DNA from: Zancudomyces culisetae
Taxonomy: Eukaryota; Kickxellomycota; Harpellomycetes; Harpellales; Legeriomycetaceae
NCBI GenBank assembly: GCA_001969505.1
Contig: LSSK01000866.1
Location: forward strand, 1-64,000
Direction of reading: 5' to 3'
Length of the DNA stretch: 64,000 bases
Positions 39,884 through 61,867 of the stretch are shown here, one piece after another. Every line of letters begins with the position of its first letter. Position 1 is the first letter of the stretch. The translations under genes and the position numbers were made by a program. The notes below the pieces were generated by a model, which worked only from the letters and a program-made list of their open reading frames with translations, had not been told where the DNA came from and did not search any database.

Positions 39884-42800
39884 TCAGATAATAGAACTTC
39901 TATATGTGGTAATAAACGATTCCGCATTTTTAATGACGGAGTTTGGAACACCAGCAAGAGCTGCCACATACAAACCATGTGAGTTTGTACAAATCCCAGG
40001 CAATACCTTATGGATAAAAGTAAAATGCAGAGAGTTAGAGGTGGGATCAATTTGATCCTGAATAGCGGTATGCATAAGTTTCAGCTTGTCAAAGCTAATG
40101 GGGAGAGGAGATGATGTGGTAGTACTGGAAGAGATAGTCGGAGAAGAAGAAGAGGGAGTAGAAGAGGAAGAAGAAGGGGATAAAGAGGAGTTGAGATAAA
40201 ATGAGTTATGATCAAATGAAAATGGGAGCCGATGGGAAAAAAACTTGCTAACAATTTCATGATAGTGTGTAGCAAACAAACACAGAGGCTTGATATTTTC
40301 ATGAAGATAAGCAAGTGTCGCATAGGCAATAGCCATACCATCGGCTGTAGACGTGCCCCGCCCAACTTCATCCATAATAACCAACGAATTACTGGTAGCA
40401 TGTTTAAGGATATCAGCAGTCTCCAACATCTCTACCATAAACGTTGACTGATTCAGGGCAAGGTTATCATGTGCACCAATACGTGTGTAGATCGAATCTA
40501 CAATTTTTAGGGCGGCATTTTCGGCAGGTACAAAAGAACCCATCTGGGCCATTACCGAAATAAGTGCAACTTGTCGGAGATAAGTACTTTTTCCTCCCAT
40601 GTTTGGGCCAGTTAATAATGTTATATGACAGTTAGAGTCGAATACACAGTCGTTGGGAACAAATTGGATACCATTTTCGCTTAACCGGAGCTCGACCACA
40701 GGATGTCGGCCGGAAATGATCGAATGGTCGTAGTTTTTATCTGGCAAAACCATATCATCACTGGATTTACCGTTTATATTGAATGTAGGACGTGTATACC
40801 CTCGTTCAACAGCAACTTTTGCAAGGCAACAACTGACATCTAAAACACTGAGCGTGCTACAATTTGATTTAATTTGGTTGTGAGACTCCAGGACAAGAAT
40901 TTTCAACATGTTAAAAACGTTTTGTTCTTCCAGCTGAATTTGTTCATGAAGTAGGTCAAGCTGTGCCAGTAGTAGAGCCATTTTTTTGTGTGTATATTTG
41001 GACTTGCCCTTGAGCGATTGGAGTTGAATAAGTTCAGGATCACCCAATTGTTCAATTTTTAGAGCGTCCCGTTTTGAAACCTCCAAATAGCCTGAGCTAA
41101 AATTTGAGTGAAAATTGCTCGAAAATAAAAAGGATTTAGAAGCCGAAAATGTGCTGTTAATTGGGCTACCATTTGAAGACCCAGCCACTAGGCGAGAAGA
41201 TGTAGGCGAATGCGAAGCTAAAGTGGAAGTCGAAGATATCGGGGATGGTGAGGAAAGAACCAATTTCAGAGAGGGAGCATTGTATTTGTTTTGTAATGTC
41301 ATTACCAATTCATCTTTAGCCTCGTTTAATACTGCTAGTCGGCCAGAAAGGAGGGATAGACTCTCAGTACAGTTGGGCTTTAGGAAGCCATAGGCCTGCA
41401 ATCCGGTTTTGGCGGGGATGTCTTGGCGAATGTGAGTAAATATTTGATGCCGAATGTGTTGCAAGGGGTCCAATCTTTGTATTGTTTTTATAGAGTCACC
41501 AATAATATCAAGCAGTTTGGGATCCTCAATAACGATATTCTCAGACGATAAAAAGGATAATAGTTCCGAAAATTCCAAACTTAAATCAGCATCGGCATTA
41601 CCAGCAGCATTACCAGCAGGATCACCATCACCCAGATTCTCAGTTGGTGAGTTTGAATCAAGCTCCAATCTTGATGGGTTAACCAGCACCCATATTTGGT
41701 TAAGCATTCGCTTTAAGGTATATCCCAAGCTATCCTTAATTTTTTCAACGGCATGTAGAGTATGTTGGATGCACAAAAGATCTATGGGCCCGCCAATATC
41801 CAGCGATAGTCGCTGCACAGCCCTTTCAGCATCTTTGACAAGAAGCAGACTTTTGCGGATTTCATGAATTGCCTGTGTATTGCGCGCAAAAAGATCAACC
41901 AGATTTAGCCGCTGCTCAATGACTTGGTAAGAAGTTGAGGGCGACGTTAGACGCTCAGTGAGCAGTCTGGATCCACTCTTGGTGCATGTATAGTCAAGCT
42001 CACCCACGAGTGTGCTGTTTACGACCCCACCACCCGCATTGCCATTTTCAGAAGACGTATTCGAGGCTGTGGTCGAGGCCCTGGACGTTACGAGTGCACC
42101 TGCATACATACTTTCTATGGGCTTCACTAGTTCCAACGCAGCTATTGTAGATGGATTCATTCGAACATTCATTGTCTGCAAAAATTTTATTGGTTGTTGC
42201 AACAGCGGAAGTCTCCCGGCTTGGGTAGAAGCTATGTAGTTTAGAAGACCCACTGATGCATAATACTCGTTCTTGTACTCAGCAGAATCAGTATCTCCAC
42301 CTGTTTGCTCGTTTCCAAGAAGCGATGATAAAAGCGCCTCGTACTGGGCCCTGGTTTCGGTCTCTTGCCCTGCTAGTTCACCTGATACTTCATCCTGCAT
42401 TCCAAATAGCTCTGAATCGTCTAAAGACTGGTACGTTCCTGAGCTGAGATTACTTCCTGACGATTGTGGGTCCTGCAGCTGATAGTTTCCTTCGTCAAAC
42501 ATATGGCTTCCCAAGACCGTTATTGTGGGACCACAATTAGTAGCTCGTGTGTTCGTTAACATACTGTTTCTATGTATGTTTTTTTGAAGCTTGTCTTCGC
42601 GATTGAATTGGCCAGAAATTGGTGATATTATATTGGCTGGCTTGTAGGTCTCATTGATGGCACTAAATGGATATATATTTTTGAGCTCAACAAGTATCTC
42701 CTCTGCGCTTTGATCGACTACTATTTCGCGAGGTCGGATGCGCGCCATATCAACGCTCAAGTCTTCAACGTTTGTGGTTGCAGTTACAAAGTCACCGGTC

Positions 42801-44368
42801 GTGATATCAATCCAAGCGAGTCCAACATCCTTAGCGCTAGATTTGCTATTCTTGAATACACAAATAATGTACTGATGACCACTGCTAAAATAATTATTTT
42901 CGCGAATACTTTGGTCAAAATCACTTTCTAAGCTTTCACCCAATTCGGCAGACATGCTCTCAACATCCTGCTGCTCCCCTAACTCCGTATCCATGCGATC
43001 AGCACTATTTACATAATTTTGATATCCATTGTTTTCATTCGAGGACTGAATGTCGCTCGATGAAAGCATCCAAGTTCCTGGTGTAAAGATCCTGGTGACC
43101 TTTCGTATAAACACTGGCCGGTCTTTGACTCTGAATTGATTGCACAATGCCACTGACTTTCCGTATTTCATCACTAAAAGCTCCAAATATCGCTCCAGAC
43201 TGCGTCCTGGAAAACCTGTAAATCGTACCGAATCAGCCTTCCCATATTTTTTATCCACTACCTGCAGGCCCAACAGAGCCCCTCCTATCTCATCGGCCTG
43301 GTTATAGTATAATTCATAAAAGTCTCCAACTCTAGTCAGCAACACACAATGAGGATATTTTTTGAGGTTTTCTCTTACACCTCTTAACACCACGCTATTT
43401 GAGTGACCTCTCTCCCCGGTTACGAGCGGCTCTACTGCGTCCATTTCTCCCACTGCACAAGCATTATTTGCATCTGTATACTCCTGAGTATTTTCTTCAA
43501 GTAAGTCATCGTCTTTAAGTCTTACACCTGACCAAGCTGGTGCGTTCTCATTTTCGACCATACCTCTATGTGGATTCACCTCCGACTCTGTGTCTAGCTT
43601 TTCTTGCTCAGTATCGCAAAGCTTTGATGCTATACTGGGTTTAGATATACCTGCAGCAGTAGGCTTGGTTTTGGTTTTGGTTTTGGTTTTGGCTTTAGTT
43701 TTAGTTTTAGTTTTAGCTTTAGTCTTAGTCTTAGAGCAGGAATCGGATTTAGACTTTGATGCTATCACACTAGTCTCCTCGTCGTCATCGTGGTTCTCAA
43801 GCTCATCGATACTCTTCTTCTTCCCTCTCTTCTTTACAGCTGTTTTTCGTAGCCCTTGTTCTTGGATTTTTGAGACTTCCTTCGTATTATCCTTTATTCG
43901 TTCTTCTTCGATCGCAGTGTGTGGCTGATCAAGACTCGTGAACTCTTTAGTATTTTTTTCCAAGGAAACTGGATCATATCCTTGACGAGTTTCTTGTTCC
44001 ATGTTGTTCGTTATACATTTTGTGGTAGATGGCTCAACTTTATCAGCGTCTTGAACAATCTTCTTTTTTCTACCTCTTTTCTTTACTACCACAGTTTCTT
44101 TAATCTCGACGACCGGGATTTCGTCTTGATTTTTAGTCTTTTTTGTTCTATACCCATGTACCTGTATACGATGAAAATCACTTTTAAGAATCCCTTTTAA
44201 GGCTGGATAAAGTTTGTTATTGTAAAATTGTGATTTTGAAAGTCCCAGATACAACCTCTTATTCCAGTATATACTCCTTGTCACAGCAGTGCTTGCAGGA
44301 TTTATTGAACACAGATTGCTTTTCGGCAATGCTATCAAGCTATGCCGCACTACTTGACCATTTTTCAT
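39884..44368 (-). CDS. MSH1: Mitochondrial MutS homologue with long N-terminal extension
   Basis: 1,494 residues, single exon; yeast Msh1 has 959. The mismatch-binding domain I starts near residue 330 (HCVLLTRVGDFYELYYNQADEIG, with the DFYELY Phe-x-Glu intercalation motif). The core clamp starts LDYTCTKSGSRLLTERLTSP. The ATPase has Walker A TGPNMGGKST, the STFMVEM segment and Walker B SLVIMDEVGRGTSTADG, then FATHYHE. The N terminus is basic (presequence-like) and includes a Lys-Thr-Lys repeat (about residues 212-236) and much low complexity; two more Ser/Asn-rich inserts lie in the connector and clamp, and a Ser/Pro/Thr insert follows the ATPase. Domain I sequence fits the MSH1 group rather than MSH2-MSH6. 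Role: mitochondrial DNA stability. Confidence 0.88.
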   Translation of the reverse strand: MKNGQVVRHSLIALPKSNLCSINPASTAVTRSIYWNKRLYLGLSKSQFYNNKLYPALKGILKSDFHRIQVHGYRTKKTKNQDEIPVVEIKETVVVKKRGRKKKIVQDADKVEPSTTKCITNNMEQETRQGYDPVSLEKNTKEFTSLDQPHTAIEEERIKDNTKEVSKIQEQGLRKTAVKKRGKKKSIDELENHDDDEETSVIASKSKSDSCSKTKTKAKTKTKTKAKTKTKTKTKPTAAGISKPSIASKLCDTEQEKLDTESEVNPHRGMVENENAPAWSGVRLKDDDLLEENTQEYTDANNACAVGEMDAVEPLVTGERGHSNSVVLRGVRENLKKYPHCVLLTRVGDFYELYYNQADEIGGALLGLQVVDKKYGKADSVRFTGFPGRSLERYLELLVMKYGKSVALCNQFRVKDRPVFIRKVTRIFTPGTWMLSSSDIQSSNENNGYQNYVNSADRMDTELGEQQDVESMSAELGESLESDFDQSIRENNYFSSGHQYIICVFKNSKSSAKDVGLAWIDITTGDFVTATTNVEDLSVDMARIRPREIVVDQSAEEILVELKNIYPFSAINETYKPANIISPISGQFNREDKLQKNIHRNSMLTNTRATNCGPTITVLGSHMFDEGNYQLQDPQSSGSNLSSGTYQSLDDSELFGMQDEVSGELAGQETETRAQYEALLSSLLGNEQTGGDTDSAEYKNEYYASVGLLNYIASTQAGRLPLLQQPIKFLQTMNVRMNPSTIAALELVKPIESMYAGALVTSRASTTASNTSSENGNAGGGVVNSTLVGELDYTCTKSGSRLLTERLTSPSTSYQVIEQRLNLVDLFARNTQAIHEIRKSLLLVKDAERAVQRLSLDIGGPIDLLCIQHTLHAVEKIKDSLGYTLKRMLNQIWVLVNPSRLELDSNSPTENLGDGDPAGNAAGNADADLSLEFSELLSFLSSENIVIEDPKLLDIIGDSIKTIQRLDPLQHIRHQIFTHIRQDIPAKTGLQAYGFLKPNCTESLSLLSGRLAVLNEAKDELVMTLQNKYNAPSLKLVLSSPSPISSTSTLASHSPTSSRLVAGSSNGSPINSTFSASKSFLFSSNFHSNFSSGYLEVSKRDALKIEQLGDPELIQLQSLKGKSKYTHKKMALLLAQLDLLHEQIQLEEQNVFNMLKILVLESHNQIKSNCSTLSVLDVSCCLAKVAVERGYTRPTFNINGKSSDDMVLPDKNYDHSIISGRHPVVELRLSENGIQFVPNDCVFDSNCHITLLTGPNMGGKSTYLRQVALISVMAQMGSFVPAENAALKIVDSIYTRIGAHDNLALNQSTFMVEMLETADILKHATSNSLVIMDEVGRGTSTADGMAIAYATLAYLHENIKPLCLFATHYHEIVSKFFSHRLPFSFDHNSFYLNSSLSPSSSSSTPSSSSPTISSSTTTSSPLPISFDKLKLMHTAIQDQIDPTSNSLHFTFIHKVLPGICTNSHGLYVAALAGVPNSVIKNAESFITTYRSSII
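43650..43735 (-). repeat. Coding hexanucleotide repeat in MSH1 (Lys-Thr)
   Basis: On the plus strand a run of GGTTTT/AGTTTT hexamers; on the coding strand it encodes alternating Lys-Thr/Lys-Ala in the N-terminal extension of MSH1. Confidence 0.8.
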
Positions 44369-53944: not shown

Positions 53945-56796
<2,852 letters not shown>

Positions 56797-59010
56797 ATGA
56801 AATTTGGGACGTATTTTGAAGAAAAGAAATCGGATTTTCCAGCCGAATGGCAGAGTTACTTTATATCATACTCTGAGCTTCGGGCAACACTGGAAGAGAA
56901 TGTGCAGGAATACTCTGTTGATCTACTCAAGTCGTTTCCAAAGGGTCACAACTTTTTATGGAAACACGTAAATTCAGCAGTTAATCTACACCTTAACACC
57001 GTTGATCCCAGGCTTCTAGGGGAAACTGAGAAACATGGAGAAGTACAGAGCGAGGGCATTAGTCAGATCGATCAGCAGCAGGTAGAGAGTTTTAGTAGCA
57101 GCAGTAAGGACTTCAAAAGAATTTTAGGAGCTAGATTGGGGGTGCTCTCCGAGCAAGTTCCCAAGTTTATCGAATTGCTAGACAAGCATGTGGAAAAGAT
57201 GGATATGTTTATCAGAAAGAATGTCGAAGAGGGAGCGCAGAGGGTAGAGGAGATATTGGAACAAATCAAAGAAAACAAAACAAAGGAGGGTCATAGTGGC
57301 ATCAAAGTAAACTCAAAGGTGTTCAAAGATCTCAGTGAAAGTCTGGATAAGATCGTTTTACTTGAGCAATTCATATTTTTGAATATCACAGTCTTAGTCA
57401 AGCTGTTGAAGAGACTGGATAAGCACAGTGGATTGAAAATCAAGGAGCCATATATTATGAGAGTTGGACAACTTCTAGTACCAACAAACACTGAGATTCT
57501 AGAGATAAAGGAGAAGACAATGAACAAGATAGCAGAGGCTACTGGCAATGGATCAGAGTCAGAAAATGGAAATTCTAATGGAGAGCGTGCTCAAGAAGAA
57601 ATGGATACAATTCTACGCGAAATCAATCTGTTGGAAAGAATCAAAAGCAACAACGAGGGGCTAATTAATATAGCCTCAGGAAAAGACGGTGAAAACGAAG
57701 TCAAGGGTTTGGTGGAGCAAAAGTCTGAAGAACTCAAGATTGAACGAATTATGAACAAGGTTGAAGGGATGCAAAACATTACAGTATCCTTGCGCGGACC
57801 TCATGGAACCGACATAATAGGCGGACTATTGGATTGTTGTTCTCGGTACAAGTGCAAGATCTTGGATTTTTCATTATCGAGACTGCATCACAACGTGGTG
57901 TTTGGCGTGCTGATACACATAAGAGGAACACAGGTGGAGCTGTTCAATGCGTTAGTTAGAGCAGCGCGGCAGTGGGATGCAGTTTTGACATTTGATGTGC
58001 AAAATGCAAAATTACAAGCCAAGCAAATAGCAGACGGGCTAGAGTACCGACTTGAAGAGGCTCCATATGCGGGTAGAGTCAAGTATGTAGCAACATTGTT
58101 AAAAGAGAATGGGCTGGGCTCAACATTTTTGGATACCTTTGTCAAATGGTTGTTGGCGAAAAGAATTTCTGTGTTGAAAATGAAGCGCTTGGATTCCAGT
58201 AAAGTATTGAAATCTATAGAATTTACGCTTAGTGTTCCAGGTGATCTAGATATCGAAGCATTGCGGTTAGACCTGTTCCAGTTGTCGAGCGAGCATTTTA
58301 CGGACGTGGCATTCCAGCCGGACAATGTGTTTCGAAGACAAAAGCGACTGGTAGTATTTGATATGGATTCAACACTGATTCAACAAGAAGTGATTGACGA
58401 AATTGCAAGGCATGCTGGAATTGTCGAAAAAGTATCTGAAATCACAGAACTAGCAATGAGGGGCATGATCGACTTCAAGGAATCATTAGCACGCAGGGTC
58501 AAGCTGCTTGAAGGAACACCGGTTGAGGTACTCGAGCTCGTACGGAAGCAGCTGCAATTTACTGAGGGAGCACATTTTCTGTGCCGTGCACTCAAGTCGG
58601 CTGGATTCAAGCTTGCAGTTATCTCAGGAGGATTTGTTCAGCTAGCCAAATATGTCAAGGCTGAATTGGGTTTGGATTACCACTTTGCCAATCAACTGGA
58701 AACCACCAGTGATGGTAAATACCTGACAGGAAGAACAGTAGGGCCTGTAGTAGATGCTGAACGTAAAGCCGAACTCTTAGAGGTCATTGCTCAGGCTGAA
58801 GGGATAGCAATTGACCAAGTTGCAGCGGTTGGTGATGGAGCAAATGACTTGCTTATGCTTGCCCGGGCCAGTTTGGGAATTGCGTTTAATGCTAAACCAA
58901 AGGTCCAGGCCCAGGCAAGGGTTAGAATTAACCAACCGTCGTTGGTGAATGTTTTGTATTTGATGGGATATTCTGATGAGGAGGCAGCACAGTTGCAAAA
59001 TGGATTTTAA
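56797..59010 (+). CDS. SPX domain - phosphoserine phosphatase fusion protein
   Basis: 737 residues in one uninterrupted frame. Residues 1-225 are an SPX domain: MKFGTYFEEKK at the start, WQSYFISYSELR, and the late helix LVKLLKRLDKHSG with the Lys cluster that binds inositol pyrophosphates. Residues about 325-500 contain two ACT-like repeats (NITVSLRGPHGTDIIGGLLD; VLKSIEFTLSVPGDLDIEAL) as in SerB. The HAD phosphatase follows: DMDSTLIQQEVIDEIA with the nucleophile Asp522, SGGFVQLAKYVK, and GDGANDLLML. The C-terminal part should make serine from phosphoserine; the SPX part normally senses cellular phosphate in VTC, Pho81 or Pho91-type proteins. No stop, frameshift or splice signal separates the parts, and the linker (about 230-320) is low-complexity. 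See findings. Confidence 0.92.
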   Translation: MKFGTYFEEKKSDFPAEWQSYFISYSELRATLEENVQEYSVDLLKSFPKGHNFLWKHVNSAVNLHLNTVDPRLLGETEKHGEVQSEGISQIDQQQVESFSSSSKDFKRILGARLGVLSEQVPKFIELLDKHVEKMDMFIRKNVEEGAQRVEEILEQIKENKTKEGHSGIKVNSKVFKDLSESLDKIVLLEQFIFLNITVLVKLLKRLDKHSGLKIKEPYIMRVGQLLVPTNTEILEIKEKTMNKIAEATGNGSESENGNSNGERAQEEMDTILREINLLERIKSNNEGLINIASGKDGENEVKGLVEQKSEELKIERIMNKVEGMQNITVSLRGPHGTDIIGGLLDCCSRYKCKILDFSLSRLHHNVVFGVLIHIRGTQVELFNALVRAARQWDAVLTFDVQNAKLQAKQIADGLEYRLEEAPYAGRVKYVATLLKENGLGSTFLDTFVKWLLAKRISVLKMKRLDSSKVLKSIEFTLSVPGDLDIEALRLDLFQLSSEHFTDVAFQPDNVFRRQKRLVVFDMDSTLIQQEVIDEIARHAGIVEKVSEITELAMRGMIDFKESLARRVKLLEGTPVEVLELVRKQLQFTEGAHFLCRALKSAGFKLAVISGGFVQLAKYVKAELGLDYHFANQLETTSDGKYLTGRTVGPVVDAERKAELLEVIAQAEGIAIDQVAAVGDGANDLLMLARASLGIAFNAKPKVQAQARVRINQPSLVNVLYLMGYSDEEAAQLQNGF

Positions 59011-59587: not shown

Positions 59588-61867
59588 ATGGCGCAGCAAC
59601 AAGAAAAGGAAAAGGAAAGACTTGTGGGAATATTAGATGGTCTAGAGGCCACAATATCCGAGTATATTTCAGGATTTGTTCTTGACGCAATAAAAGACAT
59701 TGAAACTACATGGACGAGTGGGAACGCAGGAGCAGGGGACGAGGAAGATTCAGTTCAGGAAGTAGTCAGAACAATGCTGGAAGAAAGTGGAGAACAAGGG
59801 AAGAAAATCGAAGCGATATGTACAGAAATAGAAAAAATGTTGCTTGAAGAAAAACAACGGATTCAGGAAAAACGAGTCGGTAGCAGGAGAGGAGTAGAGT
59901 TTTCAGCTGGAGGAATCACAAAGTTGGACAAGCCAATTAGTTTAACCTTGGATCAAGCCAAGATTTCTAGAGAGACCAAGATGGTATATGGAGAAGTGGA
60001 TATTGGACACACAAAGGGCCGTAAAGTGGCATCACAGGTTGATACTAAAAAGTTGAAGAAGGCAGAGGCCAAAATAGCGTCAAAACTAGAAAAACGAGAG
60101 CTCAAGGCTAACTATGAAGCTAGTAAACTAATAGACGGCAAAACAGCAGAAGAGGAGGAAGAGGAGTTTTTGCGCATGGTTAATCCAATTTTGGATTATA
60201 CCGAAAGCAAAGGAAGGAACAAGGATATCATACTGGAAAACTTTGATATTTCATTTGGAGGAAAACGAATACTGACTGATTCTCGGTTACAAATGAATTT
60301 TGGAAGACGGTATGGTTTGATAGGAAGAAACGGAATAGGAAAGTCAACACTGTTGCGTCATATTTCACGCAGAGAACTCACAATTCCTACATTCATAAGT
60401 ATCTTGCACGTTGAACAAGAAATGGCAGGAGATGACACACCGGCTATTGAATCGGTGGTCAAAGCCGATTATTTTAGAACAAGGTTGCTAAAAGAAGAAA
60501 AAGAATTAAATGCTGAGGTTCAAGAAATAGAAAGCGAACTATCACAATCCCAAGAAGACAAGGAGCGCTGCTTGGAGCTCGAAAAACAGAAATCGGATGC
60601 GGGCAATAAGCTCAACGAGGTACATAGGAAATTGCAAGAGATTGAGGCAGACAAGGCCGAAGCCAAGGCAGGAGAAATTCTGAGTGGATTGGGCTTTGCA
60701 GCATCCGAGTTCCTGAACCCAACAAGGAGTTTTTCTGGTGGATGGCGTATGCGGCTGTCTCTTGCCAGAGCACTGTTCTGCAAGCCTGATTTGCTGTTGC
60801 TTGACGAACCGACAAATATGTTGGATTTCCCTGCGGTGGTTTGGTTGGAAAGATACCTGCGCACGTGGCCAAACACTTTGTTGGTAGTGTCTCACGATCG
60901 AGATTTCTTGGATGAGGTAGCCACAGATATTATTCATCAGCACTCCGAGCGACTGGATCAGTACCGCGGCAACTTTTCGTCGTTCTGGTCAACAGCGGAC
61001 GAGCGCAAAAAGAACCAGCAGCGCGAGTACGAGGCTCAGCAAAAATTGCGTGCCCATTTGCAGGACTACATCGACCGCTGGCGGTATAATGCCAAACGTG
61101 CATCCCAAGCCCAGAGTAAACTCAAGGTTCTCGAAAAACTGCCCGAGCTGGAGCCCCCAGAACTTGAAAAGGTTGTTACGTTTACGTTTCCAGAGACTGA
61201 ACGCATTACTCCTCCACTACTTTATATGGACGAAGTCACTTTTAAATACCCCACAGCCAGCAACTTTGTTCTTAAGAATGTCAACATTGACATGCGTATG
61301 GACTCACGGGTAGCCATCGTAGGTCCCAACGGTGCGGGAAAAACCACATTATTGAAACTGCTGATAGGCGATCTCGATCCAAGCTCTGGTCATGTTCACA
61401 AACACGGTCGACTCAAAATCGCCTATTTCTCACAGCACCATGTTGACCAGCTTGATACTTCGCTTACTGCCATTGGTCACATGATGAAAACATTCCCCGG
61501 CCGCACAGAAGAAGAGTACCGCCGCAACCTTGGCTCGTTTGGCATTTCGGGTCTGACTGGTTTACAAAAAATCTCTACGTTGTCTGGTGGTCAAAAGAGT
61601 CGTGTAACTTTTGCCTGTCTTGCTGTGCTGAACCCTCACTTTTTGGTTCTGGATGAACCTACCAATCACTTGGATATGGAATCCATAGATGCTCTTACCG
61701 CTGCACTTAGAAAGTTCAATGGTGGCGTGGTAATTGTTTCCCACGACCAGCGCTTCATTTCGTCGGTTTGTGATGAGATCTGGGTTTGTAACAATGCCTG
61801 TGTGACTCTGTTTAGGGGTAATGGCATCAAAGAATATAAAGACTCCATTTGTTCTCCTACAGCCTAA
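59588..61867 (+). CDS. GCN20: ABC-F ATPase Gcn20
   Basis: 759 residues (yeast Gcn20 has 752), single exon. The N-terminal 200 residues are the Gcn1-binding part. First ABC cassette: Walker A GLIGRNGIGKST, signature RSFSGGWRMRLSLARALF, Walker B LLLLDEPTNMLDF. A linker of charged helix (RDFLDEVATDIIHQHSERLDQYRG then the arm) leads to the second cassette: IVGPNGAGKTT, STLSGGQKSRVTFA, FLVLDEPTNHLD. No transmembrane segments. With Gcn1 it sits on ribosomes and lets uncharged tRNA activate the Gcn2 kinase, switching on amino-acid biosynthesis. The alternative ABCF2 (Arb1) is less likely because of the long N-terminal part and overall order. Confidence 0.93.
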   Translation: MAQQQEKEKERLVGILDGLEATISEYISGFVLDAIKDIETTWTSGNAGAGDEEDSVQEVVRTMLEESGEQGKKIEAICTEIEKMLLEEKQRIQEKRVGSRRGVEFSAGGITKLDKPISLTLDQAKISRETKMVYGEVDIGHTKGRKVASQVDTKKLKKAEAKIASKLEKRELKANYEASKLIDGKTAEEEEEEFLRMVNPILDYTESKGRNKDIILENFDISFGGKRILTDSRLQMNFGRRYGLIGRNGIGKSTLLRHISRRELTIPTFISILHVEQEMAGDDTPAIESVVKADYFRTRLLKEEKELNAEVQEIESELSQSQEDKERCLELEKQKSDAGNKLNEVHRKLQEIEADKAEAKAGEILSGLGFAASEFLNPTRSFSGGWRMRLSLARALFCKPDLLLLDEPTNMLDFPAVVWLERYLRTWPNTLLVVSHDRDFLDEVATDIIHQHSERLDQYRGNFSSFWSTADERKKNQQREYEAQQKLRAHLQDYIDRWRYNAKRASQAQSKLKVLEKLPELEPPELEKVVTFTFPETERITPPLLYMDEVTFKYPTASNFVLKNVNIDMRMDSRVAIVGPNGAGKTTLLKLLIGDLDPSSGHVHKHGRLKIAYFSQHHVDQLDTSLTAIGHMMKTFPGRTEEEYRRNLGSFGISGLTGLQKISTLSGGQKSRVTFACLAVLNPHFLVLDEPTNHLDMESIDALTAALRKFNGGVVIVSHDQRFISSVCDEIWVCNNACVTLFRGNGIKEYKDSICSPTA

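Follow-up and report, generated by a model that had tools for sequence, protein, structure and literature searches.

To our knowledge, the known architectures built on an SPX domain all act on phosphate or on its signalling, that is, on import, export, storage or the starvation response. In the VTC complex, inositol pyrophosphates disrupt a contact between SPX domains and thereby activate the enzyme, by about 50-fold in the case of the wild-type complex (PMC10167327; this and the other papers quoted by PMC number are represented here by passages of their text). In Mycobacterium tuberculosis, the phosphoserine phosphatase SerB2 is described as passing between an active dimer and poorly active higher oligomers under the influence of serine; according to the same source, two near-identical orthologues did not show this oligomer behaviour (PMC10564941). 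The gene described here lies in a stretch of 64,000 nucleotides from the fungus Zancudomyces culisetae (contig LSSK01000866.1, positions 1 to 64,000), hereafter the window, and joins an SPX domain to the ACT and HAD parts of a phosphoserine phosphatase (SPX-SerB). We judge that a sensor domain of a known kind is here attached to an effector of a new type. By analogy with the two systems above, SPX-SerB is read as a phosphoserine phosphatase that would be gated by inositol pyrophosphates at the SPX domain, and probably by serine at the ACT domain, and a probability of about 0.68 is given to this reading. The gene and its parts are the following.

56797..59010, plus strand: SPX-ACT-HAD (SPX-SerB) gene, a single open frame of 737 codons plus stop
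56797..57546, plus strand: SPX domain, residues 1-250, recognised by PF03105, by SPX2, SPX1 and Vtc4 chains of the PDB and by a family profile compared with 5ijp
56869..56895, plus strand: N-terminal half of the putative inositol-pyrophosphate site, Y25, R29 and E33, which reads YxxxKxxxK in most of the family
57400..57432, plus strand: basic helix KLLKRLDKHSG, residues 202-212, with K202, K205, R206 and K209, aligned to Vtc4
57547..57780, plus strand: linker from SPX to ACT, residues 251-328, of variable length in the family
57781..57987, plus strand: ACT_6 domain (PF13740), residues 329-397, 28.4 bits against a Pfam cut-off of 23, with the motif GPHGTDIIG
58078..58326, plus strand: probable second ACT-like region, residues 428-510, placed by conservation and by the start of the mycobacterial SerB alignment at 472
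58345..58986, plus strand: HAD phosphatase core, residues 517-730, with D522, D524, S610-G611-G612, K657 and G679-D684

The frame begins with MKFGTYFEE, runs without an internal stop and ends in TAA, and the joining of SPX to SerB in one frame of 737 codons, claimed in a preliminary description of the sequence, is borne out by the frame itself and by the Pfam and NCBIfam scores. PF03105 was matched at 32.6 bits (cut-off 27.8), with its best stretch at residues 1-162, and the N-terminal part also matched the SPX2, SPX1 and Vtc4 chains of the PDB. A profile made from 11 SPX domains of the family matched 5ijp, the SPX domain of Chaetomium thermophilum Vtc4, with an E-value of 1.4e-17 over profile positions 1-171 of 193 (5ijp residues 1-173), and at the level of sequence it also matched chains of XPR1 (SLC53A1), PHO1 homolog 1, SPX1, SPX2 and Vtc4. 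The SPX domain had been described as complete; the window protein alone is weak in Pfam, and the family profile covers almost the whole of the 5ijp domain, which agrees with that description. Nine Pfam families were matched in the protein at E ≤ 1, and none of them is a VTC, EXS, GDPD, RING, MFS or SLC partner domain.

In an alignment of 76 rows, in which identity to the window protein is 44-57%, the linker between positions 250 and 330 was found to vary from 35 to 95 residues, and G334, H336, G337, T338, D339 and I340 of the ACT_6 motif are invariant in all rows. The preliminary description spoke of ACT-like repeats; one of these stands as a detected ACT_6 domain, and the other, at about 428-510, is predicted, since the Pfam scan of the window protein found a single ACT domain at 329-397. 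The HAD phosphatase, at residues 517-691, was matched by PF00702 (79.1 bits) and by PF12710 (72.9 bits, 519-688), and the serB family TIGR00338 of NCBIfam gave 262.8 bits over residues 503-722, against a cut-off of 144.15. The top-scoring solved chains are SerB, with 3p96, which we take to be mycobacterial, at an E-value of 9.3e-58 over residues 472-729. Asp522 and the GDGAND motif (679-684) are both present, as had been claimed, and D522, D524, E531, R567, S610-G612, K657, D680, G681 and D684 are identical in 76/76 rows; these are positions of the catalytic motifs or core of HAD phosphatases.

SPX-SerB is, as far as can be judged from sequence, an old and widespread gene family and not a curiosity of the Zancudomyces genome. 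A search of 5.8 billion proteins, in which scores were computed for 7,998 candidates, those with the most words in common, gave 7,994 relatives at E ≤ 0.001, of which the best 120 were listed. The domain order recurs in relatives, and PF03105 is precomputed together with the phosphatase in 111 of these 120, so that the same architecture, which the preliminary description had named as support, is found in related species. The other nine are five entries from Smittium, one from Blakeslea and three short or partial Coemansia records (P0038, P0041, P0043); those from Smittium and Blakeslea all retain the motif of the basic helix. A pattern for this helix, devised for this analysis, occurs in 114 of the best 120, the six without it being the three short Coemansia records and three proteins with PF03105 (P0072, P0081, P0112). 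When 39 fusion members were scanned, SPX was found at E ≤ 0.001 in 38, and database gene models from many genomes cover both halves. Among the best 120, the hosts are Furculomyces and Smittium (Harpellales, Kickxellomycota), Coemansia and relatives (Kickxellales), Thamnocephalis and Syncephalis (Zoopagomycota), Basidiobolus, Mortierella and relatives, Mucorales, Rhizophagus and other arbuscular mycorrhizal fungi, chytrids of the Spizellomycetales and Rhizophlyctidales, and Piromyces (Neocallimastigomycota). The lineages of Furculomyces, Basidiobolus, Gaertneriomyces, Piromyces, Thamnocephalis, Borealophlyctis, Lichtheimia and Mycoemilia were looked up, and those of the remaining hosts are as we assume them to be.

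For 39 fusion proteins, namely the window protein and 38 chosen by genus from the best 120, one tree was made from the SPX part and another from the ACT-HAD part. Seven groups had been named beforehand (Kickxellomycota, 10 rows; chytrid-side, 9; Mucorales-side, 6; Glomeromycotina, 6; Mortierella-side, 3; Zoopagales, 2; Endogonales, 2), and in both trees each of the seven is set apart from the other rows by a branch, with single-group support from 41 to 100 and Basidiobolus placed in none of them. Since the separate trees recover the same seven groups, the two parts were inherited together. The end branches are about five times longer in the SPX tree, with a median of 0.37 against 0.074 in the ACT-HAD tree.

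A further tree, of a quick kind and with long branches flagged, held 80 rows (39 fusions, 36 hand-picked SerB proteins without SPX and five red-algal outgroups) and used the columns of the second ACT-like region and the HAD core. All 39 fusions lie within one set of 49 rows, for which the Shimodaira-Hasegawa-like approximate likelihood-ratio test (SH-aLRT) gave a modest 84. The ten rows without SPX in this set come from Lichtheimia, Fennellomyces and Circinella, three Gigasporaceae, Dimargaris and Tieghemiomyces, Lobulomyces, and Entrophospora. The fewest changes of SPX state on the tree are 6, of which 4 are forced by starred branches, as compared with a mean of 27 with shuffled labels; such counts alone do not separate gain from loss, and the simple reading would be a single old fusion followed by several losses of SPX. 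The search for SerB proteins without SPX reached those of up to about 521 residues, which is no proof that any lineage is without fusions.

The explanation of the SPX-less relatives as mere truncated records was found to be true in part only, as the three Lichtheimia-side rows stand together in the tree as a separate group, and so do the three from the Gigasporaceae. Absence in the single rows of Lobulomyces and Entrophospora may be due to faults in the gene models. A partial SerB of 515 residues from Caulochytrium (P0148) shows, at residues 14-40, a resemblance to the C-terminal helix of SPX that stays under the cut-off (14.5 bits), the only trace of SPX among ten SPX-less proteins scanned, and is probably a truncated record of a fusion. 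In the Gigasporaceae, which are arbuscular mycorrhizal fungi, the SPX-less SerB proteins (P0124, P0127, P0138) have 426-430 residues, and their relatives Rhizophagus, Diversispora, Ambispora and Geosiphon retain the fusion; the Gigasporaceae proteins, like other SPX-less sister lineages, could serve as natural controls for what SPX does. For the ascomycetes, a profile of seven SerB proteins was used, with a first row of 427 residues, so that fusions of up to about 747 residues could be listed. PF03105 occurs in 0/120 of the best listed matches, whose lengths are 255-502 residues and whose named entries we take to be ascomycetes; no Basidiomycota entry was recognised among the matches listed, and no search reached Basidiomycota.

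The case for sensing is built on the putative ligand site. In C. thermophilum Vtc4 the inositol-phosphate contacts are Y22, K26 and K147, and Vtc4 has an N-terminal YxxxKxxxK motif (PMC8749416). A lysine cluster of SPX that includes K127 of Vtc2 or K129 of Vtc4 contacts the ligand (PMC10167327), and in Pho81 the contacts are lysines of helix 4 (PMC10511240). In Cryptococcus Pho81, the change of K221/224/228 to alanine abolished the binding of IP7, an inositol pyrophosphate (PMC7587432, where the methods text has 221, 223 and 228). The spacing of K202, K205 and K209 in the window protein equals that of K221/224/228. In the 76-row alignment, all 74 rows that extend to position 25 have Y there; position 29 is occupied by K (67), R (6) or C (1), and position 33 by K (67), E (6) or R (1). 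In the helix region, K202, K205, D208, G212 and Y219 occur in 76/76 rows and N196 in 74/76, with position 206 divided between K (69) and R (7) and position 209 between R (45) and K (31). With the equivalent of Vtc4 K147 placed through the alignment of the family profile to 5ijp, the Vtc4 triad reads Y-K-K in 67/76 rows, Y-R-R in 6 and Y-C-R in 1, two rows being truncated; the window protein has Y25-R29-R206. The mean frequency of the commonest residue is 0.51 for SPX (173 columns), 0.67 for ACT (163) and 0.86 for HAD (211). The putative ligand site is thus held while much of the SPX scaffold drifts, and this is the main evidence for sensing that the alignment offers.

The genome (23.1 Mb in 859 contigs) was searched for the genes that the reading calls upon. 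TIGR00338 has 12 matches, and the one over the cut-off is the SPX-SerB gene. A second, redundant SerB was considered and rejected, as 11 of the 12 matches lie far below the cut-off (best 29.3 bits) and mostly cover the last part of the profile; they were taken as other HAD proteins such as P-type ATPases. A SerC-like match was found at 389 bits, below the curated cut-off of 443.6, and a strong D-2-hydroxyacid dehydrogenase match (180 bits) is the candidate for SerA. Kinases of the IPK family were matched three times, once at 162 bits and twice identically at 108.6, and the N-terminal domain of PPIP5K was found on two contigs; with both genes present, the inositol pyrophosphate ligand can probably be made. 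The other SPX proteins of the genome, named by inspection, are SPX-EXS-like, Vtc4-like (on two contigs) and SPX-ankyrin-like. In one pairwise comparison the SPX half of SPX-SerB matched the SPX-EXS-like protein significantly at the N-terminal hairpin only (E 0.003). On the contig pairs C21/C186, C368/C642 and C591/C851, the Vtc4-like, IPK-family and PPIP5K genes score identically on both members, and SPX-SerB was found once. Part of the assembly therefore looks duplicated, as haplotypes or recent copies.

In the proposed mechanism, SPX-SerB would perform the phosphate-releasing last step of serine synthesis, because it is the only match over the SerB cut-off in the genome. The SPX domain, by analogy with described ones, would bind inositol pyrophosphates, whose level tracks the phosphate supply, and its change of state could reach the ACT-HAD part by way of the linker, probably as a shift in subunit packing. 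Serine would act at the ACT domain, as judged from other ACT-containing SerB proteins.

Several points weigh against gating by inositol pyrophosphates. The sequence evidence does not fix the sign of control, and several lineages without SPX retain the catalytic enzyme, so that control through SPX would be dispensable. Of the 18 SPX columns conserved at 95% or more, most (F124, L128, E190, Y219 and K238 among them) are not known contacts, and a basic patch conserved in this way might be there for another polyanion or for a partner protein. In the window protein the site is Y-R-R with E33, not Y-K-K with K33, and the SPX domain is 0.39 identical to the family consensus. As to the sign, activation when phosphate is plentiful is slightly preferred, tentatively and at somewhat less than even odds, because in VTC the ligand-free SPX keeps the enzyme inactive and pyrophosphates release it. 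The opposite sign, by which inositol pyrophosphate would inhibit SerB and phosphate shortage would free serine synthesis as an emergency source of phosphate, is a lesser, serious possibility. It is in line with PMC7864628, in which serine is predicted to rise under phosphate limitation and some inositol pyrophosphates to fall, and which counts serine synthesis in yeast among the phosphate-releasing 'sources'; it goes against the precedent of VTC, where pyrophosphates activate by undoing an inhibitory SPX contact (PMC10167327). That neither sign applies is thought rather improbable. A similarly low standing is given to the proposal that SPX dimerises the enzyme or brings it to a place such as the vacuole or the polyphosphate machinery, without gating its activity. 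This would suit the catalytic domain kept by SPX-less orthologues, the faster evolution of SPX than of the rest of the protein and the many invariant SPX positions that are not ligand contacts, but the ligand-contacting positions are among the best kept in SPX.

Ligand binding by SPX could also have been weakened or lost in the Harpellales and kept elsewhere in the family. The Harpellales, with which the window protein is placed by its nearest relatives too, are the least canonical part of the SPX-SerB family by sequence: all seven of their rows (the window protein and P0001-P0006) have replacements in the site, with R (6) or C (1) at position 29, R at 206, and E (6) or R (1) at 33. Identity to the consensus is 0.31-0.39 in their SPX domains against a mean of 0.51 in the 17 Kickxellales-side rows and of 0.54 in the other 52, and 0.75-0.78 in their HAD cores against 0.80 on the Kickxellales side and 0.89 in the other rows; because the seven Harpellales sequences did not enter the consensus, the difference looks larger than it is, in favour of the others. 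PF03105 is, moreover, not precomputed for the five Smittium entries. On the other side, both replaced lysines are arginine in 6/7 rows, N196, K202, K205 and K209 are intact in 7/7, and yeast Vtc4 also has E at the third motif position in the alignment to the PDB chains, for which reason E33 was rejected as proof of a dead site. Since K to R keeps the charge and yeast Vtc4 shares the E, the Harpellales site may still work, and its weakening or loss is held to be unlikely. That the gene is a chimera, an assembly or gene-model join of two neighbouring genes, would be a vanishingly small chance: nothing was found in its favour, the frame is intact, the fusion of SPX and phosphatase recurs in 111 of the best 120 relatives listed and the SPX and ACT-HAD trees are congruent. 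An assembly error at the junction, named in the preliminary description as grounds for giving up the claim, is ruled out for the family by this recurrence and congruence.

Outside SPX-SerB, the window has 13 other frames of at least 300 codons, and in the ten that were scanned with Pfam no SPX domain and no member of the SerA, SerB or SerC families was found. A tRNA scan found none. The neighbours are these.

54111-56047, minus strand: gene resembling those of class I glutamyl/glutaminyl-tRNA synthetases, divided, probably by an intron, between two open frames (55631-56047 and 54111-55559); it lies upstream of SPX-SerB and is divergent from it
59588-61867, plus strand: ABC-F-like ATPase with two ABC stretches and ABC_tran_Xtn, next downstream of SPX-SerB and in the same direction
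39884-44368, minus strand: MutS homologue of 1494 amino acids, in which about 335 residues precede MutS domain I

No description of an SPX-SerB fusion was found in the full-text literature searched, the coverage of which leaves out most subscription journals and all preprints. The preliminary description knew of no established family in which SPX controls serine synthesis; this holds for the literature searched and needs amending for the databases, where a widespread family is already present under the names 'phosphoserine phosphatase', 'HAD-like domain-containing protein' and 'hypothetical protein'. PMC7864628 was set aside as an SPX-plus-SerB paper, as 'SERB' in its passages is a funding agency. 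In the SPX passages of PMC13412362, PMC10437122 and PMC8298701, the proteins named are transporters, VTC and signalling proteins and not the fusion, and SerB is not among the six SPX proteins of Schizosaccharomyces pombe named in the available part of PMC8749416. The fusion suggests a direct link from phosphate status to amino-acid synthesis. It is judged a little better than an even guess that early-branching fungi have long held a dual-input phosphoserine phosphatase, with phosphate read through SPX and inositol pyrophosphates and serine through ACT, that the last step of serine synthesis is there a direct output of phosphate signalling, and that the ascomycetes and several other lineages are without this wiring. 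If the ascomycetes are without it, work on yeast could not have seen it. A domain that senses phosphate in other proteins is joined here to an enzyme of amino-acid biosynthesis, and this in arbuscular mycorrhizal fungi, Mortierella and relatives, Mucorales, anaerobic gut fungi and chytrids. If SPX does gate the activity, inositol pyrophosphates would control carbon and nitrogen metabolism allosterically, and the proposed buffering of cellular phosphate by biosyntheses that release it would have a concrete enzyme on which it could be tested.

On comparing SPX-SerB with known systems, the ascomycete SerB has the same phosphatase core, with PF03105 in 0/120 of the best matches listed and lengths of 255-502 residues. 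The EXS exporters (XPR1, Syg1, PHO1), the SLC-type transporters, SPX-MFS, SPX-RING and the stand-alone SPX proteins share an N-terminal SPX domain, and none of these architectures has a biosynthetic enzyme. Gde1 (SPX-ankyrin-GDPD; compare Pho81) likewise combines an N-terminal SPX with a phosphoester-hydrolase domain (PMC8749416, from its passages), and the differences are another hydrolase, intervening ankyrin repeats and no ACT domain. The VTC subunits Vtc2, Vtc3 and Vtc4 share the N-terminal SPX and the same basic helix, and in Vtc4 a catalytic domain follows; the partner is a polyphosphate polymerase or a relative of it, not a HAD phosphatase. The mycobacterial SerB and SerB2 (3p96) share with SPX-SerB the HAD core (DxD, SGG, K and GDGxND), an N-terminal ACT domain and a TIGR00338 score over the cut-off. 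The matched mycobacterial chains have at most 415 residues and align from residue 472 only, whereas in the fungal protein about 328 residues of SPX and linker precede the ACT domain.

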